Shown piece after piece: positions 17,451 through 30,516 of a stretch of DNA of 64,000 nt. Made by a program: the position numbers and the translations under genes. The notes beneath the pieces were generated by a model. The model saw only the letters and a program-made list of their open reading frames with translations. It was not told where the DNA came from and did not search any database. The first letter of the stretch is position 1. Each line of letters opens with the position of its first letter. This DNA is from Variovorax paradoxus (GTDB lineage: Bacteria > Pseudomonadota > Gammaproteobacteria > Burkholderiales > Burkholderiaceae_C). Location of the stretch: positions 5,415,501-5,479,500 of the forward strand of contig NZ_CP091716.1 in the NCBI RefSeq assembly GCF_022009635.1, read 5' to 3'.

Positions 17451-18293
17451 TCAAGGCAGCAGTTCGAACTTCAGGTCCGCCAGCGGCGTGACCTTTTCTT
17501 CGCGCACCATCTTGTATTCGGTGTTCGGGCCCAGCCACTTGGCCCAGATGCGGTCGAGCTCGCCCGACTTCTCCAGCGCGTAGAGCGCGCCGTTCACCTT
17601 GGCCAGCAGCGCGGGCTCGTCCTTCTTCATGCCGATGCCCACGGGCTGCAGCACCATCGGGTCGGCGATCATCTTCAGCGCCACGCCGCCGGTCTTCGAC
17701 TGGTTGACCAGCTTGGTGATGGTCATGGTGTTGGCCACCATGCCGACCGACTTGTTCTGCTGCACCGCCATGAAGGCCGAGCCCGTGTCCTGGAAGGTGA
17801 CGGGCTCGGAGCCGTTCATCTTGATCGACATTTCCGAGGTGGAGCCCTTGGTCGAGCTCAGGCGCTTGCCCTTGAAGTCGGCCTTGGTCGTGCCGGGATC
17901 GGAGGCCTTCACGGCCAGCATTTCCTTGGCCACGTAGTACGGGTCGCTGAACTGGATCTGCTCGCCGCGGCTCTTGGTGTAGGCCAGGTTGGCGATGGTC
18001 ACGTCGACGCGGCCGAGCTTGACTTCGGGCACACGCGCCTCCACAGACAGCGGCGTGATCTTGGCGACCAAGCCCAGCTCCTTGGCCACGGCATTGCACA
18101 GGTCCACGTCGTGGCCCACCATCTCGCGCGTCTTCGGGTCGGGCGCGGCGAACGGAGGCACGTCGGCGAAGGTGCCGCAGCGCAGCTCCTTGCGCTGGCT
18201 GATGTCGCTCCACTGGTCGGCGTGCGCCAGCAGGGACGCTGCGCCCAGACAAGCGCCGATGGTGGCGAGGCGGAAGACGGTCTTGTTCGACAT
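17451..18293 (-). CDS. Polar amino-acid ABC transporter, periplasmic binding protein
   Basis: A 280-residue SBP_bac_3-family protein with a signal peptide (cleavage after LLAHA). Conserved segments are LRCGTFADVPPFAAPDPKT, VGHDVDLCNAVAKEL, VDVTIANLAYTKSRGEQIQFSDPYY and GTTKADFKGKRLS. It is nearest in type to glutamate/aspartate or glutamine receptors. AGGAG lies just before ATG 18293. It is the last gene of an SDR-permease-permease-ATPase-receptor operon whose promoter carries the composite LysR operator at 21509-21549. The true ligand may be a glutamate-like compound (see findings). Confidence 0.92.
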   Translation of the reverse strand: MSNKTVFRLATIGACLGAASLLAHADQWSDISQRKELRCGTFADVPPFAAPDPKTREMVGHDVDLCNAVAKELGLVAKITPLSVEARVPEVKLGRVDVTIANLAYTKSRGEQIQFSDPYYVAKEMLAVKASDPGTTKADFKGKRLSSTKGSTSEMSIKMNGSEPVTFQDTGSAFMAVQQNKSVGMVANTMTITKLVNQSKTGGVALKMIADPMVLQPVGIGMKKDEPALLAKVNGALYALEKSGELDRIWAKWLGPNTEYKMVREEKVTPLADLKFELLP

Positions 18294-18357
18294 GAAGAAC
18301 TCCTGGAGGGATTGCGAAGAGCGAAGAAGTGAACGAACGAACGAACGGCGGCTGGAA

Positions 18358-19145
<788 letters not shown>

Positions 19146-19149
<4 letters not shown>

Positions 19150-19925
19150 GGCAGGGTCGCCACCGTGGGTGCCGGGGTGGCGGGAGAGGTGGGCAGCGAC
19201 GCGCCCTCCTCGGCCGGCTTCACCGGCGTGGCGCCGAGCCGCTTGTGGGCGATGCGCCGCTCCAGCCACTGCGCCAGCTGCGTGAGGCTGAAGCACACGA
19301 CGTAGTACGTCAGCGCCAGGATGAAGAACACCTGGAACGGCTTGGTCAGCAGCTGGTTGTTGATCTGGTTGGCCGCGAAGGTGAGTTCCTGCACGTTGAT
19401 CACGTAGCCCAGCGTGGTCTCCTTGATGGTGGAGATGAACTGGCTCAGCATGCTGGGCAGCATGTTGTAGAGCGCCTGCGGCAGGATCACGAACCACATG
19501 GTGCCCAGGTGGCTGTGGCCGAGCGCGCGCGCCGCCTCGCTCTGCCCCTTGGGCAGCGAGAGGATGCCGGCGCGCACCACCTCCGACAGGTAGGCGCCTT
19601 CGTAGATCACCAGCGTGCACAGCATGGTGGTGAAGCCCGACACCTCGCGCCCGATGAGGATCGGCACGAGAAAGTAGACCCACAGAATCACCATGAGCAG
19701 CGGCACGCCGCGCACCACGTACACCAGCACGGTGGCGGGCCAGCGCAGCAGCCGCCAGGGCGACAACCGTGCCAGCGCCAGCAGCACCGACAGCGGAAAG
19801 GCCAGCACGATGCCCAGCACCGACAGGATCAGGGTGGCGACGATGCCGCCGAGCGGGCCGCTCGGGTACTGGCCGACCAGCAGCAGCAACCAGTTGTCGC
19901 GAAGAATTTCGTAGACGCTGTACAT
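19146..19925 (-). CDS. Polar amino-acid ABC transporter permease (GltK/GlnP type)
   Basis: A 259-residue inner-membrane permease of the HisM/GltK class with about five membrane helices. The EAA-loop motif contacting the ATPase reads [43 protein letters not shown] matches the family. The ~30-residue C-terminal tail rich in Ala/Pro/Thr is unusual for the family and probably cytoplasmic and disordered. It lies between the ATPase gene and the other permease gene. Confidence 0.93.
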
Positions 19926-19946
19926 CGTGATGTCTCGGCTATTTTT

Positions 19947-20648
19947 TTATCTTGCACCGACGATGCGGTAGCGCCGCGACAACCATCCGCCCACGGCCAT
20001 GATGAGCAGCGAGCACACCAGGTACAGCACCGTGGCCACGCTGTAGGCCTCGAAGGTGCGAAAGCTCTGGCTCTCGATTTCCTTCACCGCGTGCGTGAGC
20101 TCGGCCACGCCGATGGCCATGGCCAAACTGCTGTTCTTGAAGAGCGACACGCTGTGGTTCACCAGCGCCGGCACCGCGTTGCGGATGGCCTGCGGCAGCA
20201 TCACGAAGCGCATGGAGCCGATGTAGCCGTGGCCCAGCGCGCGCGCGGCCTCGGCCTGCCCGGCGGGAATGGCGCGCAGGCCGGAGCGCATGTCTTCGCT
20301 GAAGTAGGCGGCCTGGCACAGGCCCAGCGCGACGATCGACAGCAGCGTCTCCGCGTTGTGCGCCGACAGCCAGCGCTGCAGCGCGTCGGGCAGCACGCTG
20401 AAGATGCCGAAGTACCAGAACATGAGCTGCACCAGCGTGGGCACATTGCGGTGGTAGGAGACATAGCCGGCCACCACGCGCTCGGCGATGCGGTTCGGCG
20501 TGAGCCGCACCACCAGCAGCAGCACGGCCATGGCCATGGCCAGCAGCCACGAGCCCGCCGCGATCTTCAGCGTCTCCTGCAGACCGTGCAGCAGCATGTC
20601 GCCGAACTCCGGTTTCAGCAGGATCGCCAGCAGGTCGAAGTCCTTCAT
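19947..20648 (-). CDS. Polar amino-acid ABC transporter permease (GltJ type)
   Basis: A 233-residue permease with typical features: YVSYHRNVPTLVQLMFWYFG and the EAA loop [24 protein letters not shown]. It forms a heterodimeric channel with the product of the gene 21 bp downstream. It is preceded by the SDR gene with a 40-bp gap in the same operon. Confidence 0.93.
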   Translation of the reverse strand: MKDFDLLAILLKPEFGDMLLHGLQETLKIAAGSWLLAMAMAVLLLVVRLTPNRIAERVVAGYVSYHRNVPTLVQLMFWYFGIFSVLPDALQRWLSAHNAETLLSIVALGLCQAAYFSEDMRSGLRAIPAGQAEAARALGHGYIGSMRFVMLPQAIRNAVPALVNHSVSLFKNSSLAMAIGVAELTHAVKEIESQSFRTFEAYSVATVLYLVCSLLIMAVGGWLSRRYRIVGAR

Positions 20649-20688: not shown

Positions 20689-21441
20689 TCAGTCGCGCGG
20701 CGTTTCCGGCCGCGTGGTCGACAGGCCGCCCGGCACTTGCAGCGTGGGCGTGATTTCCATGTGGCCCACGTTCACCGCGATGGGCGCGGCAATGGCGAAG
20801 GCGATGGCGTTGGCGATGTCTTCGGCCTGCGGCAGTTCGTAGCCTTCGACGAAGCGCTTGTAGGTTTCCTCGGAGTCGCCGTGCACGTGCGCGAAGATGT
20901 CGGTGGCCACGCGCCCCGGGCAGATCTCGGTGACGCGCACGCGCTTGCCGAAGCAGTCGATGCGCAGCTGGCGCGACAGCATGCTCACCGCCGCCTTGGT
21001 CGCGTGGTAGGTGCTGTTGCCGCCGAAGTTGTAGGCGGCCGCAATGGAGCTGATGTTGACCACGTGGCCGCGGTCGCGCGCCGCCATGCCGGGCACCACG
21101 AGCCGGCACAGGTGCAGCACCGCGCGCAGGTTGACGTCCACCAGCAGGTCGATGCCTTCGGCGTCGGCCTTGAGGATGGAGCCGGGGCGGTCCACGCCGG
21201 CGTTGTTGACCAGCACGTCGAACTCCACTTCCTGCGCGAGGCGGGTGATGCCCGCGAGGTCGCTCACGTCGATGGCGTGCGCGATGCAGCCGGTGCGCGC
21301 GGCCAGGTCGGCCAGCTTGTCGGCGCTGCGCGCCAGTGCGTGGACCTTCAGGCCTTCCTTGCTGAGGCGTTCGACGACGGCGGCGCCGATGCCCGATGAG
21401 GCTCCAGTCACCAGCGCGGTCTTGTAGTCGGAAAAAGGCAT
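20689..21441 (-). CDS. Short-chain dehydrogenase/reductase (SDR), first gene of transporter operon
   Basis: A 250-residue classical SDR: NAD(P) motif TGASSGIGAAV, NNAG (VLVNNAGVDRPG), catalytic Ser in NISSIAAAYNFGG and Tyr-x-x-x-Lys in STYHATKAAV. It resembles serine/3-hydroxy-acid dehydrogenases of the YdfG group, which suggests an NADP-dependent beta-hydroxy-acid or beta-hydroxy-amino-acid substrate. It is first in an operon with an amino-acid importer, behind one of the three composite LysR-type promoters. It may therefore oxidise the imported compound or its breakdown product. Confidence 0.88.
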   Translation of the reverse strand: MPFSDYKTALVTGASSGIGAAVVERLSKEGLKVHALARSADKLADLAARTGCIAHAIDVSDLAGITRLAQEVEFDVLVNNAGVDRPGSILKADAEGIDLLVDVNLRAVLHLCRLVVPGMAARDRGHVVNISSIAAAYNFGGNSTYHATKAAVSMLSRQLRIDCFGKRVRVTEICPGRVATDIFAHVHGDSEETYKRFVEGYELPQAEDIANAIAFAIAAPIAVNVGHMEITPTLQVPGGLSTTRPETPRD

Positions 21442-21485
21442 CTCGAGTTCTTTCGTAAAGGGGCAGATGACTGCCTTGGAATTCA

Positions 21486-21549
21486 CTGTAGCCAGCGCCT
21501 GTTCGCTGCGCCAAGACGGATTGACTGTGGAGCGATAAGCCCCCCTTAT
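21486..21549 (-). promoter_or_regulatory. Composite LysR-type promoter 1 (SDR / ABC operon)
   Basis: Reading along the minus strand, the operator ATA-N9-TAT (21549-21535, ATAAGGGGGGCTTAT) comes first. Then CAATCCGTCTTGG (21523-21511) contains a TTGGCG -35-like element (21514-21509), and a 17-bp spacer leads to CTACAG (21491-21486) as -10. The same layout with the same distances precedes the genes at 26363 and 27560. ATA-N9-TAT is the known consensus of the LysR family member Nac. Confidence 0.7.
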
Positions 21550-21607
21550 GTCGCCCGCGATCTGTGCATATGGGTAAGGGTTAGCACCATGTTCGTGCCC
21601 CGATGCA

Positions 21608-22372
21608 TCAGTTCGATTGCCTGGAGATGGGCACGATGCGCCCCGCCTGCTCGACCACGCCACGCACGGCGCGGGCCAGCTCGACGGCGCCGGGCGTGTC
21701 GCCGTGCAGCAGGATCGAATGCACGCGCATCGGGATCTTCTTGCCGGTGCTGCTGGTGACGGTGCCGTCCTCCAGAAGCTGGCGCACGCGCGCCAGCACC
21801 GCCTCGCGCTCGTGGATCACGGCGCCGGGCAGCTTGCGAGGCACGAGCAGGCCGTCGTCGCCGCAGGCGCGGTCGGCCAGGAAGGTGGTGCGCACGCGCA
21901 GGCCGCAGCGCTCGGCGGCGCCTTCGATGGCGCGGCTGGCGGAGGTGCTGACGGTGAGCGAGGGGTCGAAGTCGGCCACGGCGCGCACCAGCGGCTCGGC
22001 CAGCGCGGCGTCGGCCGCGGCCATGTTGCCGAGCGCGCCGTGGAAGCTCATGTGCGTCATGCGGTGGCCTGCCGTGCGCGCCATGCCGGCGAGCGCGCTG
22101 AGCTGGTAGAGCACGTAAGAGACCAGTTCTTTTGTCTCGATCTGCATCTGCCGGCGGCCGAAGCCCATCAGGTCGGGAAAGCCCACGTGCGCGCCGACAT
22201 CGACGCCGCGCTGGCGCGCCATGCGAACGGTGCGGTCCATGATGACCGGATCGCCGGCGTGGAAGCCGCAGGCGACATTGGCGGAAGAGACGATGTCGAG
22301 CAGGGCTTCGTCCTCGCCCATGCGCCAGGGGCCGAAGCCTTCACCGAGGTCTGCGTTCAGGTCGATGTCCAT
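21608..22372 (-). CDS. pxpA: 5-oxoprolinase subunit A / LamB-YcsF family lactam-utilisation protein
   Basis: A 254-residue protein with the LamB/YcsF hallmarks: MDIDLNADLGEGFGPW, SSANVACGFHAGDP, VGAHVGFPDLMGFGRR, and SILLHGDTPGAVE near the end. In E. coli PxpA works with PxpB and PxpC to open 5-oxoproline (pyroglutamate) to glutamate using ATP. Here it is the last gene of an operon that also carries biotin carboxylase and carrier genes, so the substrate may differ. AAGGA precedes ATG 22372. Confidence 0.9.
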   Translation of the reverse strand: MDIDLNADLGEGFGPWRMGEDEALLDIVSSANVACGFHAGDPVIMDRTVRMARQRGVDVGAHVGFPDLMGFGRRQMQIETKELVSYVLYQLSALAGMARTAGHRMTHMSFHGALGNMAAADAALAEPLVRAVADFDPSLTVSTSASRAIEGAAERCGLRVRTTFLADRACGDDGLLVPRKLPGAVIHEREAVLARVRQLLEDGTVTSSTGKKIPMRVHSILLHGDTPGAVELARAVRGVVEQAGRIVPISRQSN

Positions 22373-22400
22373 GGGAGGTCCTTCTCTTTCTCTCTTCGGG

Positions 22401-22799
22401 TCAGAGGGGGTGCAGGTCGATGAGTACCGTGCCGTAACCGACGGCAGCACCGTTTGCCACGTGGATGGCATCGACGATGCCTGTCTGGGGTGCGGTCACA
22501 GGCAGCAGGAGCGGGCCGATGTTCAGGAGCCCGATGACCTGGCCGGGGTTCACGCGCTGGCCCACGCTCGCAAGGGCGGCTGGGGCGGACGGGTGGCTGT
22601 GCAGGTAGGTGCCGACAGAAGGAGCCTTGACTTGCACGCTCTCTGTTTCTTCTGTTTCTTCTTCGGGCAGTTCGACGATGTTGTCGCCTTGCCTGCCCAG
22701 GCGCAGGGTGCCGGTTGGTGTGCGCAGCTCGAGCAGGCCGATGTCGGTGTTCGCCAACCAGGCGGCTAGTTCTGGTGCACGCAGTGCTGTGTCCTGCAT
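22401..22799 (-). CDS. Degenerate biotin-carrier-like protein lacking the biotinyl lysine
   Basis: A 132-residue protein. The C-terminal ~80 residues align with the AccB biotinyl domain (VKAPSVGTYLHSHPSAPAAL, VGQRVNPGQVIGLLNIG, TGIVDAIHVANGAAVGYGTVLI). Where carriers have Glu-Ala-Met-Lys-Met, this has Asn-Ile-Gly-Pro-Leu, so the biotin attachment Lys is missing. It cannot be a biotin carrier and may be a structural or regulatory subunit. It lies between the pxpC and pxpA genes in the operon, which also encodes a normal carrier at 25920. Confidence 0.8.
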   Translation of the reverse strand: MQDTALRAPELAAWLANTDIGLLELRTPTGTLRLGRQGDNIVELPEEETEETESVQVKAPSVGTYLHSHPSAPAALASVGQRVNPGQVIGLLNIGPLLLPVTAPQTGIVDAIHVANGAAVGYGTVLIDLHPL

Positions 22800-22917
22800 T
22801 TTTCAGGCCTTCGCTTTTTCTTTGTGGTCTTGTTCGGGGCGGTGCACAGGCCGCGCGACTGGCTTGCGACGGATCAACGAGCGCTCCGATCGAAGGTCAC
22901 GCTTCGAACAAGAGAAC

Positions 22918-23901
22918 TCAAACACGAGGCGCCCCCCGATGAAGGGCCACCACACGCGCCACCTTGTCGAGCCACGCACGCACTTCGTCGAGCGCGTCCA
23001 GGGCTTCGTCCCATGTGGTCTCGATGAAGCGCATGCGGCTGCCGATGGGGGCCTGGCCGAGGCGCCACATGTCGGCCTCGATCACGGTGCCGAATTTGGG
23101 GTAACCACCGGAGGGCTGGGCGTCGCGCATCTGGATGATGGGCTGGCCGCTGTGAGGCACCTGGATGACGCCGGGCACGATGCCGTGGGAGCGCAGTTCC
23201 ATCGGTGCGATGGGCCGCAGCGCCTCGCCGTCGAGCCTGTAGCCGTAGCGGTCGCTTTGCGGCGTGATCTTCCATTCGCCGGACCAGAAGGCATCGCGCG
23301 ACGCCGGTTCGAAGGCCATGTATTCAGCCGCGGGCAGCACGCGCACGGCCGCCACGCCGTCGCGCGCCAGCGGCAGCGCGAGCGCGGGCGGCACCAGGCC
23401 GAAACCGGTGCGGCTGGCAGTACCGGCGCCGGCGGCGCGCAGCACGTCGCCGCGCTGCAATGCGCGCCCTTCATGGCCGCCGAATGCACCGCGCAGCTGG
23501 GTGCTGCGCGAGCCCAGCACCTCGGGCACGTCGATGCCGCCGGCCACGCAGAGCATGGCGCGGCTGCCGCGCTGCGCGCCGCCTTGCGGCAGGCCGAGCG
23601 TGAGCACCTGGCCGGCGCGCGCCTGGTGCACCCACCAGGGCATGAGCGGCTGCTCGTCGAGCCTGGCGGCGCAGTCGGCGCCGGTGAGCGCGAAGGCGCA
23701 GTCTTCGCCGAAGCGCACCTTGAACGGGAACACCGGCACCTCGATGGCGGCTGCGCCCAGCGCATTGCCCAGCAGCAGGTTGCCGGCGGCCAGCGCCAGG
23801 TTGTCCATGGCGCCCGAGGTGCCCACGCCCCAGCGCAGGCTGCCGGTGCGGCCCAGGTCCTGCACGGTGGCCAGGGCGGCGGACGAAAGGATTTCGATCA
23901 T
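22918..23901 (-). CDS. pxpC: 5-oxoprolinase subunit C / carboxyltransferase-like (KipA, AHS2)
   Basis: A 327-residue AHS2/KipA-family protein: [66 protein letters not shown] and SHGIVPGVIQVPHSGQPI. Homologous to half of the carboxyltransferase domain of urea carboxylase and to E. coli PxpC. ATG 23901 overlaps the stop of pxpB (ATGA), indicating coupled synthesis of the two halves. With PxpB it makes the active site that carboxylates or phosphorylates the amide. Confidence 0.9.
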   Translation of the reverse strand: MIEILSSAALATVQDLGRTGSLRWGVGTSGAMDNLALAAGNLLLGNALGAAAIEVPVFPFKVRFGEDCAFALTGADCAARLDEQPLMPWWVHQARAGQVLTLGLPQGGAQRGSRAMLCVAGGIDVPEVLGSRSTQLRGAFGGHEGRALQRGDVLRAAGAGTASRTGFGLVPPALALPLARDGVAAVRVLPAAEYMAFEPASRDAFWSGEWKITPQSDRYGYRLDGEALRPIAPMELRSHGIVPGVIQVPHSGQPIIQMRDAQPSGGYPKFGTVIEADMWRLGQAPIGSRMRFIETTWDEALDALDEVRAWLDKVARVVALHRGAPRV

Positions 23902-24557
23902 CGGACGATGCCCTCCACGCGGAAGCGGATCATGTCGCCCGGCTGCAGCATCGCAGGCGGGTCTTGCGCGGGGTCGAAGAACACCATCGACGTGCTGCCG
24001 ATGGTGTTCCAGCCGCTGGGGCCGGCCGACGCCGACACGCCGGTCTGCGCGCCACCGATCGACACCGCGCCGCCGGGAATGCGCAGCACCGGCACCTTGC
24101 GGCGCGGCGTGGCGATGCGCGCGTCCATCCCGCCCAGGTAGCAGTAGCCGGGATGGCTGCCCAGCGCGTACACAGGATAGAGCGGCGCGGAGTGCAGCTC
24201 GACGATGGCGTCGATGCTCAGGCCGGTGTGCGCCACCACGTCGGCCATGTGCGGGCCGCCCTCGCCGCCGTACACCACCGGCAGCTCGACCACGCGGCCT
24301 TCGCGCTTCAGGGCAGTGGCAGCGCTCCAGGCCTCGCACAGGCGGGTGCGCAGCGCGTCGAGCTGGCGCGGCGCGCGCGTGAAGGTGAGCATGAGGTTGT
24401 TCATGCCGGGCACGGCCTCGCGCACTTCGGGCCAGGTTTCGGCCTCGTGCGCGAGCGCCCAGATGCGCTGCTGCGACGGCAGGCTCATGTCGCCGGGCGC
24501 CTCGAAGAGCAGCGCGGTGGTGCCCAGGAGGCTGGTGGATGGTGCCTGCGTGCTCAT
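23898..24557 (-). CDS. pxpB: 5-oxoprolinase subunit B / carboxyltransferase-like (KipI, AHS1)
   Basis: A 219-residue AHS1/KipI-family protein: [61 protein letters not shown] and [20 protein letters not shown]. The partner of PxpC. The order biotin carboxylase, AHS1, AHS2 mirrors the domain order in urea carboxylase. The start overlaps the biotin-carboxylase stop by 4 bp. Confidence 0.9.
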
Positions 24558-25906
24558 GCCGCGCTCCTTTGCTGCAGCCAGCGTTCGAGATGGTGGATGT
24601 CGACGCCGCCGGCTGCGAAACCTTCGTCCTGCAGCAGCGCGCGGTGCAGCGGCACGTTGGTGGCGATGCCGTCCACGCGCGTCTCGGCCAGTGCCAGGCG
24701 CATGCGTTCCAGCGCGTCGGCACGCGTGCTTCCATGAACGATGAGCTTGGCGATCATCGAGTCGTAGTAAGGCGGCACGCGGTAGCCGGCGCCGGCATGC
24801 GAATCGACGCGCACGCCGAAGCCGCCGGGCACCTGCCAGCCGGTGATGCGCCCCGGCGCGGGCGCGAAGGTGTCGGGGTTCTCGGCGTTGATGCGGCACT
24901 CGACGGCATGCCCCTGGCAGCGCACGTCGGCCTGCGCGATCGTCAGGCGCTCGCCGCGCGCCATGCGCAACTGCTGCTGCACGATGTCGATGCCGGTGGT
25001 CATCTCGGTCACCGGGTGCTCCACCTGCAGGCGCGTGTTCATCTCGATGAAGTAGAAGGCGCCCTTCTCGTACAGGAACTCGAAGGTGCCCACGCCGCAG
25101 TAGCCGATCTGCCGGCACGCGGCGGCGCAGCGCTCGCCTACCTCGGCCATCAGCGCGTCGTCGATGCCGGGCGCGGGCGCTTCTTCGATCACCTTCTGGT
25201 GGCGGCGCTGCAATGAGCAGTCGCGGCTGCCCAGCCACACGGCGTTGCCGTGGCTGTCGGCCAGCACCTGGATCTCTACATGGCGCGGATGCAGCAGGAA
25301 CTTCTCGATGTAGACCTCGGGGTTGCCGAAGGCCTGGCGCGCTTCCTCGCGCGTGAGGGCCATGGCGTCGAGCAGCGCGGCTTCTTCGTGCACCACGCGC
25401 ATGCCGCGCCCGCCGCCGCCGCCCGCAGCCTTCACGATGACCGGGTAGCCGATGTCGCGCGCCAGCGCCAGCACGGCGGCGGGGTCGTCGGGCAGCGGCT
25501 CGTCGGGGCCGGGCACGCAGGGCACGCCGGCCTTGCGCATTGCGCGCTTGGCCGAGACCTTGTCGCCCATGGTGCCGATGCAGGCGGCGCTGGGGCCCAC
25601 GAACGCCAGGCCGGCCTCTTCGCAGCGGGCGGCGAAGCCCGCGTTCTCGGAAAGGAAGCCGTAGCCGGGATGGATCGCCTGCGCGCCGCTCACTTCGGCG
25701 GCGAACAGGATGGCGGACTGGTTCAGGTAGCTCAGGCCTGGCGCGGCCGGCCCGATGCACAGCGCCTGGTCGGCCTGCGCCACGTACACGGCGTCGCGGT
25801 CGGCCTCGGAGTGCACGGCCACGGTGCGCAGGCCCAGGCCACGGCAGGCGCGCTGGATGCGCAGTGCGATTTCGCCGCGGTTGGCGATGAGCACGGTGTC
25901 GAACAT
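24554..25906 (-). CDS. Biotin carboxylase (AccC-type) of a pxp-linked operon
   Basis: A 450-residue ATP-grasp biotin carboxylase: [36 protein letters not shown], Gly-rich ATP loop [50 protein letters not shown]. It carboxylates biotin on a carrier with bicarbonate and ATP. Genes for an acetyl-CoA-type carboxyltransferase (accA/accD) are not adjacent. The neighbouring genes encode AHS1/AHS2 proteins instead, so the carboxyl acceptor is more likely an amide, lactam or urea-like compound than acetyl-CoA. This is probably not the housekeeping AccC. Confidence 0.92.
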
Positions 25907-25919
25907 CGCGTGTGCCTCC

Positions 25920-26363
25920 TCAATCGAAGCGGAACAGGGGCTGGCCCGCTTCCACTTCCTGGCCCGATTGCACGAGCACCTGCCGCAGCGTGCCGGCACG
26001 CTCCGCGCGGACCTCGTTGAACATCTTCATGGCCTCGATCACGCACAGCAGCTGGCCGGCTTCCACGGCCTGGCCCGGCTGCACGAAGGGCGGCTCGCCC
26101 GGTGCCGACTGAAGATGCGCCACGCCGTGCAGCGGCGCGAGGCATTCGCCGCTGTCGGCGGGCACGGCCGACGCCTGCGCTTCGTGTGCCCTTGATGGCG
26201 CCTTGCGCGCGGCGGACGGCTTTCGCGCGGCGGCTGTGGGCACACCGGCCAGCGCCGACAGCTTCACCAGCCGCAGCGTGCTGCCGTTCTCGCTGAACTC
26301 CAGCTCCGCCAGGTCCGATGCGGCCAGGGCGTCGATGAGTGTCTTGATCTGTTCCTGCTTCAT
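25920..26363 (-). CDS. Biotin carboxyl carrier protein (AccB-type)
   Basis: A 147-residue carrier. The N-terminal helix pair ([33 protein letters not shown]) is followed by an Ala-rich linker and a biotinyl domain with the canonical Lys in [15 protein letters not shown]. It is the first gene of the pxp operon, behind composite promoter 2. The longer frame to 26414 would start upstream of the predicted transcription start (~26411), which supports ATG 26363. Confidence 0.9.
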
Positions 26364-26417
26364 GCCGAAGGCTGTGGTGGCCGACGCGCTCCGCGAGCAC
26401 GTGACGGCATGCATGAA

Positions 26418-26481
26418 AGGTAACGGGCCGCGGGCACAAAGCCCAAGACGGATTGGCTGTGCCGGGATAAGGCCGGCTTAT
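26418..26481 (-). promoter_or_regulatory. Composite LysR-type promoter 2 (biotin carrier / pxp operon)
   Basis: Minus-strand order: operator ATAAGCCGGCCTTAT (26481-26467, an exact ATAAG/CTTAT dyad, ATA-N9-TAT), then CAATCCGTCTTGG (26455-26443). The -35 is TTGGGC (26446-26441), followed by 17 bp and -10 TTACCT (26423-26418). The distance from operator edge to CCAAGA edge is 24 bp, as in the other two copies. The operator overlaps the stop codon of the lysR gene. Confidence 0.72.
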
Positions 26482-27416
26482 GACAGTGCGGAGAGCTCCG
26501 GCTCGGGCGTCGACGCCACGGTGCCCGCGAGGTCCACCACCAGCTCGAGCAGGATGTCCTTCACCGCCTGCGCGGGCTCCGAGAGCGGCAGGTGGTCGGA
26601 CTGGCACAGCGCCAGCGGCGCCTCGATGACCGGGTCGACGATGGGGAATTGCCAGGCGCCGCAGGTCGCGACCACTTCGCGCGCCATCGACGCCGGCAGG
26701 ATGGTGGCGCCCAGCCCGTCGGCAATGGCCGCCGTGAGGGTGAAGGCCGATTCGATCTCCGCCACCACGCGCGGCACCATGCCCGCGCGCACGAAGGCGG
26801 CGTCGACCAGCTTGCGCACCACGTTGTAGGGGCGCGGCAGGAAGAGTTCGATGTCGCGCAGGTCGGCCAGCTTCACCGGCTGCGAAGGCGCCGGCATCGA
26901 CGCCGGGCCGACCAGGAACAGCGGCTCCTTGAGCAGCGGCAGGAACGTGAGTCCGTGGATGGCCTTGTCGCCGTACAGCACGGCCAGGTCCATGCGGCCG
27001 TTCATGATGAGCTCGCTGAGCGTGGTGCCGTAGTTCTCGTTCAGGTAGAGCAGGATGCCCGGATGCCGCGCGCGCACGGTGCGCAGCAGCGGCAGCGACA
27101 GCGCCGAGGCGGCCGTGCCGGGCGCAAGCCCCACCGACACCTGGCCAGAGAGGCCTTCGCCGGCGGCTTCCATGTCGACGCGGGCCTGCTCGCACTGGCG
27201 CAGGATGATCTGCGCATGGCGGTAGAGCACCTTGCCGGCCTCGGTGGGCGTCACGCCGCGCTTGGTGCGCACGAGCAATTGCTGGCGCACCTCGCCCTCG
27301 AGCGTGGCCAGTTGCTGGCTCAGCGCAGGTTGGGCAATGAAAAGAACCTCGGCCGCCTGCGTCAGGCTGCCGATGTCCACGATCTTCACGAAATATTTGA
27401 GGCGTCGCAGGTTCAC
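26478..27416 (-). CDS. LysR-family regulator, Nac-like
   Basis: A 312-residue LysR-type regulator. The N-terminal winged helix (MNLRRLKYFVKIVDIGSLTQ, AEVLFIAQPALSQQLATLE) is very close in style to the Nac/Cbl branch. The effector-binding domain follows (GQVSVGLAPGTAASALSLPLL, LYLNENYGTTLSELIMNGRMDLAVLYG). GTG 27416 is taken as the start because conserved sequence begins there and a GGACAAGG sequence precedes it; the frame stays open to an ATG at 27482. Three ATA-N9-TAT sites flank its own gene and two operons nearby, so it is the probable regulator of the whole cluster. Confidence 0.9.
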   Translation of the reverse strand: MNLRRLKYFVKIVDIGSLTQAAEVLFIAQPALSQQLATLEGEVRQQLLVRTKRGVTPTEAGKVLYRHAQIILRQCEQARVDMEAAGEGLSGQVSVGLAPGTAASALSLPLLRTVRARHPGILLYLNENYGTTLSELIMNGRMDLAVLYGDKAIHGLTFLPLLKEPLFLVGPASMPAPSQPVKLADLRDIELFLPRPYNVVRKLVDAAFVRAGMVPRVVAEIESAFTLTAAIADGLGATILPASMAREVVATCGAWQFPIVDPVIEAPLALCQSDHLPLSEPAQAVKDILLELVVDLAGTVASTPEPELSALS

Positions 27417-27487
27417 GCCTTGTCCCCAAGCAAAAGCCAAGCCTAGCATCGCGTTTGCGTGGCGGATATGAGGGCTCACCATGAGTC

Positions 27488-27551
27488 ATAAGCTGCGCCT
27501 ATACGACCAGTGCAATCTCGTCTTGGCCTCGCGGGAGCGATGTGCGTACCG
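27488..27551 (+). promoter_or_regulatory. Composite LysR-type promoter 3 (aminotransferase / aldolase operon)
   Basis: ATAAGCTGCGCCTAT (27488-27502; ATA-N9-TAT), then CAATCTCGTCTTGG (27513-27526). The -35 is TTGGCC (27523-27528), followed by 17 bp and GTACCG (27546-27551). The predicted start of transcription (~27558) falls at the ATG at 27560, suggesting a leaderless mRNA. The operator is also 72 bp upstream of the divergent lysR start, allowing autoregulation. Confidence 0.68.
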
Positions 27552-27559
27552 TTCGGTCC

Positions 27560-28774
27560 ATGCAAGCCACTACCTCCCGCATTGCCGCCCGCGTGCGGCG
27601 CATCAAGCCCTCGCCCAGCACCTCGGCCGCCGACCGCGCCAACGAACTGCGCAGGCAGGGCAAGTCGATCGTGAACCTCGTGGTCGGCGAGCCCGACTTC
27701 GACACGCCCGCGCACATCCGCCAGGCCGCGGCCGCGGCCATCGAGCGCGGCGCCACCCGCTACACGCTGATGGCGGGCACCGTGGAGCTGCGCGAAGCCA
27801 TCGTCGCCAAGCTGGAGCGCGAGAACGGCCTGCGCTACGCGATGAACGAGATCATCGCCACCAGCGGCGCCAAGAGCGCGATCTACAACGCCTTCGCGAT
27901 CACGCTGGAGCCGGGCGACGAGGTGATCATTCCCGCGCCCTACTGGGTGTCGTACCCCGACATGGTGCTGGCCTGCGAAGGCACGCCCGTCACCGTGGCC
28001 TGCCCCGAGTCGCAGGGCTTCAAGCTGGCGCCCGCGCAACTGGAGGCCGCCATCACGCCGCGCACGCGCTGGCTGCTGCTCAATTCGCCAAGCAACCCGA
28101 CCGGCGCGAGCTACACGGCGCAGGAATACCGCGCGCTGGCCGAAGTGCTGGAACGCCATCCGCACGTGATGGTGATGACCGACGAGATCTACGAGCACAT
28201 CCGCTTCGACGGCGAGACCACGCCGCACATCCTGGTGCAGGCGCCTTCGCTGCGCGACCGCACGCTGATCGTGAACGGCGTCTCCAAGACCTATGCGATG
28301 ACCGGCTGGCGCATCGGCTACGCGGCCGGGCCCGTGGACCTGATCAAGGCGCTGGACACTTTGCTGTCGCAGTCCACCGGCAACTGCTGCTCGGTGAGCC
28401 AGGCCGCCGCCGCCGCCGCGCTGAACGGCGACCAGAGCTTCGTGGCCGAGAGCGTGGCCGTCTACCGGCAGCGCCGCGACCGCACGCTGGCGCTGGTCAA
28501 CGAGATTCCCGGCCTGAGCTGCGCCACGCCGCCCGGTGCCTTCTACCTCTACATCAACTGCGGCGGCCTCATCGGCAAGACCACGCCCGAGGGCAAGCGC
28601 CTGGACGAAGACGGCGACGTAGTGATGTACCTGCTCGAAAGCGAAGGCGTGGCCGTGGTCGCGGGCACCGCGTACGGGCTGTCGCCCTACTTCCGCCTTT
28701 CGATTGCCACGTCGATCGAGACGCTGGAAGAAGGCTGCAAGCGCATGGCGCGCGCCGTGGCCGCGCTGCGCTGA
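27560..28774 (+). CDS. PLP-dependent aminotransferase, class I (aspartate-aminotransferase fold)
   Basis: A 404-residue fold-type I aminotransferase: VVGEPDFDTPAHIRQAA, TRYTLMAGTVELREAI, NSPSNPTGASYTAQEY, DEIYEHIRFDG, PLP Lys in NGVSKTYAMTGWRIGY, and substrate Arg near SPYFRLSIATS. It would interconvert an amino acid and its 2-oxo acid. A GTG at 27542 with GGGAG upstream could extend it by six residues, but the shared promoter geometry places transcription initiation at ~27558, which favours ATG 27560. It is followed by the RraA-like aldolase gene, so the oxo acid formed is probably an aldol substrate. Confidence 0.9.
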   Translation: MQATTSRIAARVRRIKPSPSTSAADRANELRRQGKSIVNLVVGEPDFDTPAHIRQAAAAAIERGATRYTLMAGTVELREAIVAKLERENGLRYAMNEIIATSGAKSAIYNAFAITLEPGDEVIIPAPYWVSYPDMVLACEGTPVTVACPESQGFKLAPAQLEAAITPRTRWLLLNSPSNPTGASYTAQEYRALAEVLERHPHVMVMTDEIYEHIRFDGETTPHILVQAPSLRDRTLIVNGVSKTYAMTGWRIGYAAGPVDLIKALDTLLSQSTGNCCSVSQAAAAAALNGDQSFVAESVAVYRQRRDRTLALVNEIPGLSCATPPGAFYLYINCGGLIGKTTPEGKRLDEDGDVVMYLLESEGVAVVAGTAYGLSPYFRLSIATSIETLEEGCKRMARAVAALR

Positions 28775-28800
28775 AGATTTCAAGACGAGGACGATTCCCC

Positions 28801-29472
28801 ATGCCCTACAAAGCCATCCGCAAGAACCCGTCGGCACCGCAAGTGGCGCCGGCCATACTCGCCGCGCTGCAAGACATTCCGGTGGCCGCGCTCAGCGACA
28901 ACCTGCACCGCAACATCGGCAGCGTCGGCCTGCAGCCCTATCACCGCCCCGGCCGCAAGACGATGGCGGGCACGGCCGTCACCGTGAAGACGCGCGGCGG
29001 CGACAACCTCACACCCATGCGCGCCTTCGAGTTCTGCCGGCCCGGCGACGTGCTGGTGATCGACGCGGGCGGCGACGTGACCAACGCGGTCATCGGCGGC
29101 ATCCTGTCGTTCTACACCGCGACCATCGGCACCGCGGGCCTGGTGCTCGACGGCGCGATCCGCGACGTGGCCGAGATCCGCGAGCGCGACTACCCGGTGT
29201 ATGCGCGCGGCGTGAACCACCGCGGCCCCTACAAGGACGGCCCCGGCGAGATCAACGTGCCGGTATCGGTCGGCGGCATGGTCGTGAACCCGGGCGACAT
29301 CGTGGTGGGCGACCAGGACGGTTTGCTGGCCTTCTCGCCCGACGAGGCCGAGTTGCTGATCGAGAAGGCGCGCGCGCACCTGGAAACCGAAGCGCGCACG
29401 ATTCAAGCGATGAAGGAAGGCCGCTGGGACCGCTCCTTCCTCGACGCGCTCGAGGCACGCTGCGCGAATTGA
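28801..29472 (+). CDS. RraA-like class II aldolase (4-hydroxy-4-methyl-2-oxoglutarate aldolase type)
   Basis: A 223-residue RraA-family protein: ALSDNLHRNIGSVGLQPY, AGTAVTVKTRGGDNLTP, the metal/substrate motif GLVLDGAIRDVAEIRER, and INVPVSVGGMVVNPGDIVVGD. Family members include HMG/CHA aldolases that cleave 4-hydroxy-4-substituted-2-oxo-diacids to pyruvate, and the RNase E inhibitor RraA. The Asp-x-x-x-Arg-Asp motif typical of the aldolases and the aminotransferase partner favour the catabolic role. It lies 26 bp downstream of the aminotransferase gene with GAGGA before ATG 28801. Confidence 0.82.
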   Translation: MPYKAIRKNPSAPQVAPAILAALQDIPVAALSDNLHRNIGSVGLQPYHRPGRKTMAGTAVTVKTRGGDNLTPMRAFEFCRPGDVLVIDAGGDVTNAVIGGILSFYTATIGTAGLVLDGAIRDVAEIRERDYPVYARGVNHRGPYKDGPGEINVPVSVGGMVVNPGDIVVGDQDGLLAFSPDEAELLIEKARAHLETEARTIQAMKEGRWDRSFLDALEARCAN

Positions 29473-29481
29473 ATCCGGGCG

Positions 29482-30408
29482 TCAGGCGCCTTCGCTGACC
29501 AGCGCCCACAGCGCCTCGGCCACCGGCGCCATCTGCGCCTGCTGGCGGTACAGGCGTATGTCCACCGGCACGCGCCAGCCGCCCGCGCCGGCATCGACCA
29601 GCGCGCCGCCGCGCAGGTCGTCGGCCACCAGGCTCATCGGCAGCCACGCGAGGCCGCGGCCTTCGAGCGCCATGGTGCGCAGCAGCGCCGCATGGTGGGC
29701 GGTGAAGACGATCGAAAGCGACGCGGCGAAGTCCTTGCCGAACTCGCTGTCCTGCAGCGACCGCATGATCCGCCCCAGCCCCGAGGCCTCGCTGTATGCG
29801 AGCACTGAAGGCGACTGGCCGGCACCCAACACGTGCAGCGGCGCGGCGCCCGCATCAGGCGCGCTCACGGGCACCAACACGTCTTCGCTCAACCGCTGCA
29901 CGGGGTATTGCCCCTCGTCGAGCCGGCCCGGCGCGCCCGCATGGCCGTGGCACAGCACGAACTGCACGCGTCGCTGCAGCATCAGGTCTTCGCAGGCGTA
30001 GGAGCTGTCCGAAACGGTCTGGATCGGGCCCATGCTCAGGCGCGACTCCACGCTGCCCAGCCAGCGCGGAAAGAAGGTCAGCGACAGCACGTGCGTGGCG
30101 GCGAAGCTCAGGCTGGCGGCGTCGAGGTCGTGCGCGGCGCGGGCCTTGATGCGCGCGGCTTCCAGGCCGGCCAGCACCTCCTGCAGCAGCGGCTGGAAGC
30201 GCTTGCCCGCCGCCGTGAGCGCCGTGGGGTGCGCGCTGCGGTCGAACAGGTCGACCCCCACCCACTCTTCCAGCGAGCGGATGTGCCGGCTGAACGCCGG
30301 CTGCGCGATGGAGCGCGCCTGCGCGGCACGCGAGAAATTGCCGGTCTCGGCCAGGGCCAGGAAGTCTTCCAGCCATTCCAGGTCGAGCGGTCGGTTGCCA
30401 GGGCCCAT
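29482..30408 (-). CDS. LysR-family regulator of the D-tartrate cluster
   Basis: A 308-residue LysR-type regulator: DNA-binding domain LDLEWLEDFLALAETGNFSR, AQPAFSRHIRSLEEWVGVDL, and an effector domain (SLSFAATHVLSLTFFPRWL, LSEDVLVPVSAP). It is divergent from the DapA-like gene at 30517. The intergenic region carries an AATA/TATT spaced dyad (about 30422-30455) that could be its site. It probably controls the DapA-like / Bug receptor / SDR / dehydratase operon. It is a different branch from the Nac-like regulator at 26478. Confidence 0.88.
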   Translation of the reverse strand: MGPGNRPLDLEWLEDFLALAETGNFSRAAQARSIAQPAFSRHIRSLEEWVGVDLFDRSAHPTALTAAGKRFQPLLQEVLAGLEAARIKARAAHDLDAASLSFAATHVLSLTFFPRWLGSVESRLSMGPIQTVSDSSYACEDLMLQRRVQFVLCHGHAGAPGRLDEGQYPVQRLSEDVLVPVSAPDAGAAPLHVLGAGQSPSVLAYSEASGLGRIMRSLQDSEFGKDFAASLSIVFTAHHAALLRTMALEGRGLAWLPMSLVADDLRGGALVDAGAGGWRVPVDIRLYRQQAQMAPVAEALWALVSEGA

Positions 30409-30516
30409 GCGCAGCGCGATTGAATAGTTGTATGCGATTCGAGTATTGGACGGCGCCCGCCCCGCCGGCAAAAGATGCACCCATTCCTGCACCTTGAACC
30501 ACAACGGAGACACAGC

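Follow-up and report, generated by a model that had tools for sequence, protein, structure and literature searches.

A NAC-family LysR-type regulator of Variovorax paradoxus and the composite promoter shared by three operons around its gene

We analyzed a 64,000-nt stretch of the Variovorax paradoxus genome (NCBI RefSeq GCF_022009635.1, contig NZ_CP091716.1, positions 5,415,501-5,479,500, forward strand), hereafter the window. It contains an operon for an SDR-family oxidoreductase and an ABC transporter, an operon for a biotin carrier and Pxp proteins, and an operon for an aminotransferase and an aldolase-like protein. The same, unusually well-preserved composite promoter precedes all three, and the gene of a LysR-type regulator lies between the last two. 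The regulator and the promoter elements are listed below, with scores from a position weight matrix (PWM) built from 143 dereplicated promoter copies of relatives and used at a threshold of 14. The window itself was excluded from the training set, which includes close Variovorax relatives.

26478..27416, minus strand: LysR-type regulator, NAC family, 312 aa from GTG 27416 (family search and alignment to E. coli Nac)
21535..21549, minus strand: operator 1 (ATAAGGGGGGCTTAT), SDR/ABC operon; promoter PWM 66.5
21511..21518, minus strand: CGTCTTGG element 1, likely second regulator contact plus -35 (TTGG)
21485..21490, minus strand: predicted -10 TACAGT, SDR/ABC promoter
26467..26481, minus strand: operator 2 (ATAAGCCGGCCTTAT), biotin carrier/pxp operon; PWM 69.5
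26443..26450, minus strand: CGTCTTGG element 2 with -35
26417..26422, minus strand: predicted -10 TACCTT, operon 2
27488..27502, plus strand: operator 3 (ATAAGCTGCGCCTAT), aminotransferase/aldolase operon, also upstream of the divergent lysR; PWM 58.0
27519..27526, plus strand: CGTCTTGG element 3 with -35
27547..27552, plus strand: predicted -10 TACCGT, operon 3

An earlier note on this DNA had placed ATA-N9-TAT at these three operator positions and a second element exactly 24 bp from each. Both statements are exact. ATA-N9-TAT is found in the window at 21535-21549, 26467-26481 and 27488-27502 only (3 versus 0.30 expected; 1 of 100 shuffled windows contained 3). The second element, CCAAGACG, which reads CGTCTTGG in the direction of transcription, is likewise confined to 21511-21518 (+), 26443-26450 (+) and 27519-27526 (-), and its outer edge lies 24 bp from the near edge of the operator at all three promoters. 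The count of CCAAGACG by itself is not enriched (2.79 expected in the window versus 3 seen), so the informative feature is its constant spacing to the operator. Along transcription, each promoter consists of ATAAG-N5-CYTAT, 16 bp, CGTCTTGG and then the -10, and each points into an operon. The note had further described a TTGG -35 and an nTAC -10 17 bp apart. Both are present, but TTGG forms the last four bases of CGTCTTGG, so that the "-35" and the CCAAGACG element are one feature counted twice. TAnnnT (TACAGT, TACCTT, TACCGT), 18 bp from TTGGnn, is the better reading of the -10, because its T, A and final T are conserved columns among relatives. With a start 7 bp beyond this -10, the predicted center of the operator shifts slightly, from near -63 as originally suggested to near -64. 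The operator includes T-N11-A, the classical LysR recognition form, and a CAnAG-N9-CTTGG sequence overlaps the -35.

The TAA stop codon of lysR (26478-26480) is embedded in operator 2, while in several relatives operator 2 is clear of the matched gene. At the third promoter, both here and in one relative (L065), the leader and Shine-Dalgarno sequence of the aminotransferase gene are missing, and the ATG lies within 1-2 bases of the predicted start (27547-27560). In most loci sampled (every second one), the aminotransferase start is about 20-37 bases downstream, in many cases after an AGGA-type stretch. The aminotransferase mRNA is possibly leaderless in this genome, judging from these distances.

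The position of the LysR gene between the last two operons was confirmed. Its start is most likely GTG 27416 rather than 27482, because E. coli Nac starts at the same place. By sequence the protein is a member of the NAC family, as the term "Nac-like" had implied: it scores 493.9 bits against the NCBIfam NAC equivalog model NF008410 (cut-off 309) and shares 53.8% identity with E. coli Nac over 288 residues (155/288), with 55 of 63 aligned residues identical at the N-terminus. Searches with the regulator used 26478-27413 (residues 2-312), that is, the protein without its first codon. The next-nearest LysR proteins in the same genome are 37-40% identical, and at an E value of 1e-80 only the regulator itself was matched in this genome. 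The lysR gene (minus strand) and the aminotransferase gene (plus strand) are divergent and flank operator 3. This anatomy makes autoregulation likely.

The genes of the three operons are as follows.

20689..21441, minus strand: SDR-family oxidoreductase, first gene of operon 1 (219 SDR-type families matched; below the curated cut-offs of single models)
17451..20648, minus strand: ABC transporter of operon 1, with two permeases, ATPase and binding protein (from translations)
21608..26363, minus strand: operon 2 overall (this and the six genes below by family search)
25920-26363, minus strand: biotin carrier (accB)
24554-25906, minus strand: biotin carboxylase
23898-24557, minus strand: PxpB
22918-23901, minus strand: PxpC
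22401-22799, minus strand: second carrier-like protein
21608-22372, minus strand: PxpA
27560..28774, plus strand: aminotransferase (NCBIfam PRK06107, aspartate transaminase; 736 bits, cut-off 617)
28801..29472, plus strand: RraA-family aldolase-like protein (PRK06201; 297.5 bits, cut-off 231)

The transporter of a homologous cluster is annotated as an amino acid ABC transporter. The biotin-accepting MK motif is missing from the second carrier-like protein and from its counterparts in 69 of 70 relatives, whereas 79 of 80 first carriers (accB) possess it. A Rahnella plasmid cluster has a single annotated carrier, likewise motif-less, and the annotation of that stretch shows no biotin carboxylase.

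We compared the composite with the same pattern read backwards across the 7.95-Mb genome. The strict composite with up to 3 mismatches gave 4 matches (the three window sites at 0 mismatches and one at 2), and the backwards control also gave 4. With the last two bases loosened to KG and no more than 1 mismatch allowed, the genome gave 4 matches and the control 0. Equal frequency of the motif elsewhere in the genome would have spoken against the earlier proposal, but the three window sites are the only composites with 0 mismatches. In the window, the next-best PWM position after 69.5, 66.5 and 58.0 scored -4.3, and 100 random 64-kb sequences with matching first-order composition reached -1.8 at best. 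Two variants served as unplanned negative controls: the composite with another spacer (N17) gave 104 genome matches versus 101 for its control, and the composite with a misplaced CAATC gave 0 genome matches.

Conservation was counted in the best 80 of 480 relatives, chosen by their LysR match, so that the presence of the regulator in all 80 follows from the selection. A site was counted as upstream if a composite with at most 3 mismatches lay within 260 bp before the matched gene. The composite precedes the matched aminotransferase gene in all 79 loci that hold it, and the SDR gene in 73 of 74 loci; the exception, L112, has as its sole SDR match a protein of 32% identity encoded far from the cluster genes. 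For accB the count is 75 of 80 (exceptions L107, L108, L109, L112 and L116), and in four of these five exceptions, all save L108, the composite stands instead before an RraA gene placed between lysR and accB. The relatives include Variovorax, Polaromonas, Rhodoferax, Ralstonia, Cupriavidus, Paraburkholderia and Pseudomonas, together with bins named Acetobacteraceae and Hyphomicrobiales; the promoters are thus kept in beta-, alpha- and gammaproteobacterial relatives. Column conservation was calculated from 13 to 48 dereplicated sequences per promoter class. Site selection biases the operator and CGTCTTGG columns, while the spacer and TAnnnT columns were not used in selection. These unselected columns carry 1.00-1.28 bits (spacer) and 1.06-1.61 bits (TAnnnT), with flanking columns at 0.23-0.40 bits upstream and 0.11-0.34 bits downstream.

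The composite and the regulator also occur together. Among 101 genomes of the genus, where a match at E 1e-80 or better was taken as regulator-positive, 49 had both, 50 had neither, 1 had only the motif and 1 had only the regulator (Fisher p 1.3e-26). Totals were 50 regulator-positive and 50 composite-positive genomes, and the backwards control gave 0. The two exceptions are G273 (58% complete, with a homolog of only 56% identity) and G262 (88% complete, with one atypical site). The family survey of 200 genomes contained 4 regulator-positive ones with three cluster sites each, and the genome of the window has a fourth site. One other genome, G104 (76% complete), was motif-positive, and its contig begins inside an apparent lysR 3' end. 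There was 1 control match in the 200 genomes.

The composite was found in front of cluster-type genes at other positions as well. A separate composite belongs to RraA at 15 of 60 loci, among them Limnohabitans and Variovorax OV329 as well as Paraburkholderia, Burkholderia and Trinickia, in which last three it is kilobases away from lysR. Aminotransferase paralogs carry it in Polaromonas (3 mismatches) and in L098 (2 mismatches), and in two Paraburkholderia loci and Burkholderia pyrrocinia a weaker composite (3-4 mismatches) stands before an L-idonate 5-dehydrogenase-like gene. Further composite-like sites stand before sugar-acid genes (L080:4340, L130:4146, L185:17229, L186:2389) for a gluconate 5-dehydrogenase-like SDR, an L-idonate 5-dehydrogenase-like protein, a 2-hydroxyacid reductase and a gluconokinase-like kinase; these names come from reading translations, except that of the reductase, which comes from a family search. 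Nine genomes of the genus encode a second NAC-family protein, 59-67% identical. At the three paralog loci examined, the neighboring genes encode enzymes of the hydantoinase/caprolactamase type, an SDR, an ABC transporter unlike the one here and an aminotransferase of the same type as in the window. A composite with 1 mismatch is part of this separate cluster.

Plasmids provided sites outside the PWM training set. There were 162 plasmid records with a match, and we analyzed eight regions. Three sites in the Bradyrhizobium region scored 43.7-55.2 and four in the Burkholderia pyrrocinia region 35.3-63.0, and two Rhizobium loci of the pxp kind have one site each (30.9 and 32.4). Sites in hydantoinase-kind loci were weaker (Rhizobium johnstonii 17.4; Agrobacterium 22.2 and 14.8). 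The Citrobacter nac region, where nac and cbl are neighbors as they are in E. coli, contained no site at the PWM threshold of 14. On the chromosome of the window's own genome, the fourth site (G000:C1:1311797-1311835) has 1 mismatch, a PWM score of 38.6 and the -10 TACCTT. The gene after it matches NAD(P) transhydrogenase subunit alpha (pntA; NF006942, 393.2 bits, cut-off 383). Since transhydrogenase genes lie near nac in Burkholderia pyrrocinia, a functional link of pntA to the regulator is plausible, and pntA is a likely fourth target in this genome.

The DNA itself shows a common, conserved promoter that occurs together with the regulator, and it shows to which family the regulator belongs. 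These observations suggest that the three promoters are very probably the docking site of the LysR protein encoded between two of them. The earlier proposal that this protein controls all three operons gains computational support from its family, from the co-occurrence and from the conserved and relocated promoters. The mechanism that we infer covers binding, activation as against repression, the arrangement of dimers, the substrate and any inducer. A LysR tetramer would place one dimer on the strong palindrome ATAAG-N5-CYTAT near -64 (the recognition site) and a second dimer on the weaker CAnAG-N9-CTTGG overlapping the -35 (the activation site). Bound LysR would then recruit RNA polymerase to a weak sigma-70-type promoter, TTGGnn-N18-TAnnnT. 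This would switch on ABC uptake, ring opening by PxpABC with the biotin carboxylase and carrier, transamination and an aldol-type cleavage, acting on a substrate that may be a lactam or an amino-acid-like compound. A 4-hydroxy-4-substituted glutamate or its lactam was considered as the substrate, an idea drawn from aldolase chemistry; the literature listing gave it no support and we do not claim it. We therefore propose with good confidence a NAC-family LysR that would act locally, binding the three promoters as two dimers and activating operons for uptake, ring opening, transamination and cleavage.

Several observations weigh against this proposal. One accB locus (L108) lacks an accB site within 3 mismatches, and the Pseudomonas aminotransferase site has lost part of CGTCTTGG (CATCTTAT or CGTCTTAT). 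A few composite-like matches concern genes that do not belong to the set: in L124 one with 2 mismatches stands before a porin-like gene, and in L104 one with 3 mismatches before a transporter-like gene. The two sites of the Rahnella plasmid have 2 and 3 mismatches, and only one passes the PWM threshold (21.3). In the order survey of 399 genomes there was 1 regulator-positive genome, 1 chance motif (G694) and 5 control matches, and the class survey of 369 genomes had 1 regulator-positive genome; with so few regulator-positive genomes, both surveys carry almost no information. All genomes listed with a PxpB of at least 73% identity were regulator-positive; in regulator-negative ones, any PxpB was more distant, near 42-51% identity. 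The cluster is all-or-none and inherited as a block, so co-occurrence alone proves little about recognition. The motif tracks the genes and not just their position, and this separates recognition from block inheritance.

The block inheritance that confounds co-occurrence would also suit a cluster in which the promoters were copied internally, kept by some other constraint and used by another regulator, such as the LysR-type product of a gene at about 29482-30500. The pntA site resembles out-of-cluster sites in G280 and G282, as copying would yield. However, among L089-L119, loci in which the composite is present, the neighboring LysR was matched only in L103 (a weak control, as the query ended at a stop), and at each of the three hydantoinase-type loci studied a Nac-family paralog shares its cluster with the motif. 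We regard a different regulator as improbable. Chance or compositional coincidence is less credible still, to the point of being negligible. Although CCAAGACG alone occurs at its expected frequency and the backwards control at 3 mismatches equals the genome count of 4, the constant spacing, the conservation across classes, the co-occurrence and the PWM null all oppose it. We rejected a chance origin of the promoters on the control count of 0 at no more than 1 mismatch, the co-occurrence in the genus and the PWM null.

The regulator could alternatively be a true enterobacterial-type NAC, a global regulator under NtrC/sigma-54 for which the three operons are merely the nearest targets. Enteric NAC has a global regulon with many unlinked genes, works without a small-molecule co-effector, and its gene is transcribed from a sigma-54/NtrC promoter. 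The equivalog match far over the cut-off, the near-identical N-terminal domain and the likely pntA target elsewhere in the genome are all compatible with this. So is a GG-N10-GC element resembling a sigma-54 -24/-12 promoter (8-10 of 12; E. coli nac, the positive control for this scoring, reaches 11 of 12), which in the Variovorax set L061-L088 begins some 28 bases ahead of the lysR start codon at 27 of 28 loci. The 28th locus, L088, has the same element with its match split. Against this, an element so placed would have lysR transcription begin roughly at the start codon, and in the other set, L089-L140, no more than 6 of 52 loci have an element scoring 8 or higher at that place. Moreover, just one more composite exists in 7.95 Mb, a count limited to composites with CGTCTTGG, so that other kinds of site could be missed. 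A global NAC therefore appears unlikely to us, if less so than a different regulator, and the protein looks like a local regulator rather than a demonstrated nitrogen regulator.

If local action is correct, genes annotated as NAC in Variovorax, Burkholderia, Rhizobium and relatives would gain a defined regulon, and the global nitrogen role that the name implies may be wrong for them. The promoters would form an unusually clean natural set for studying how a LysR activator reads recognition and activation sites, and the regulator would offer a handle on a pathway that combines PxpABC with biotin carboxylase. The origin of enteric NAC would also become testable.

The predicted layout corresponds to that of classical LysR activators, whose recognition site is usually centered near -65 with a weaker activation site over the -35, according to PMC12016517. 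In the same source, another LysR protein, BhbR1 of Pigmentiphaga kullae, binds ATA-N9-TAT, so this form alone is not diagnostic of Nac. As described there, BhbR1 controls 3-bromo-4-hydroxybenzoate catabolism, whereas here a single strict composite is shared by three operons and also accompanies genes that have moved. In Corynebacterium glutamicum, the PxpABC 5-oxoprolinase system combines uptake and ring opening under the regulator PxpR (PMC13274462); the main text of that report lacks the words LysR and carboxylase. The same PxpA, PxpB and PxpC subunits were found here by family search, but this cluster adds the biotin carboxylase, two carrier-like proteins, the aminotransferase, the aldolase-like protein and the SDR. 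The matches listed in our literature search, with most subscription papers outside reach, included no Nac-type regulon for pxp clusters. A further comparison is with clusters of ATP-dependent ring openers of the hydantoinase/caprolactamase (CapAB) type, which have a Nac-family paralog in some Variovorax and an annotated nac on one Rhizobium johnstonii and one Agrobacterium plasmid. They share the aminotransferase type, the SDR and the aldolase-like protein with this cluster but differ in the ring opener and in having a branched-chain type ABC transporter. The Variovorax hydantoinase-type proteins score below the caprolactamase cut-offs.

A tree of 32 proteins without Rahnella nests enteric Nac among the cluster regulators (88/88 support). 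The alternative with enteric Nac outside them was not rejected (approximately unbiased test, p-AU 0.143), so descent of a global regulator from a local one is a lead only. A tree joining Rahnella with enteric Nac was set aside, since that joining was flagged as a meeting of long branches. We raise as a tentative possibility that non-enterobacterial "NAC" proteins are widespread local regulators of a catabolic module built with two ring-opening machines (PxpABC plus biotin carboxylase, or the hydantoinase/caprolactamase type) together with aminotransferase, aldolase, SDR and ABC uptake, and that enteric NAC left the cluster and joined the NtrC cascade. Enteric NAC binds ATA-N9-TAT and acts at sites near -64 of sigma-70 promoters, activating, for example, hutU from near -64. 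The composite was absent from the E. coli nac and codB regions and from the vicinity of Citrobacter nac, save for one 4-mismatch match 6 kb from the latter. Compared with enterobacterial NAC (E. coli b1988), the regulator described here has the NCBIfam equivalog, a nearly identical N-terminal domain and the ATA-N9-TAT form in common, but its gene lies inside its target cluster, its composites are few genome-wide, and a conserved CGTCTTGG follows the operator.

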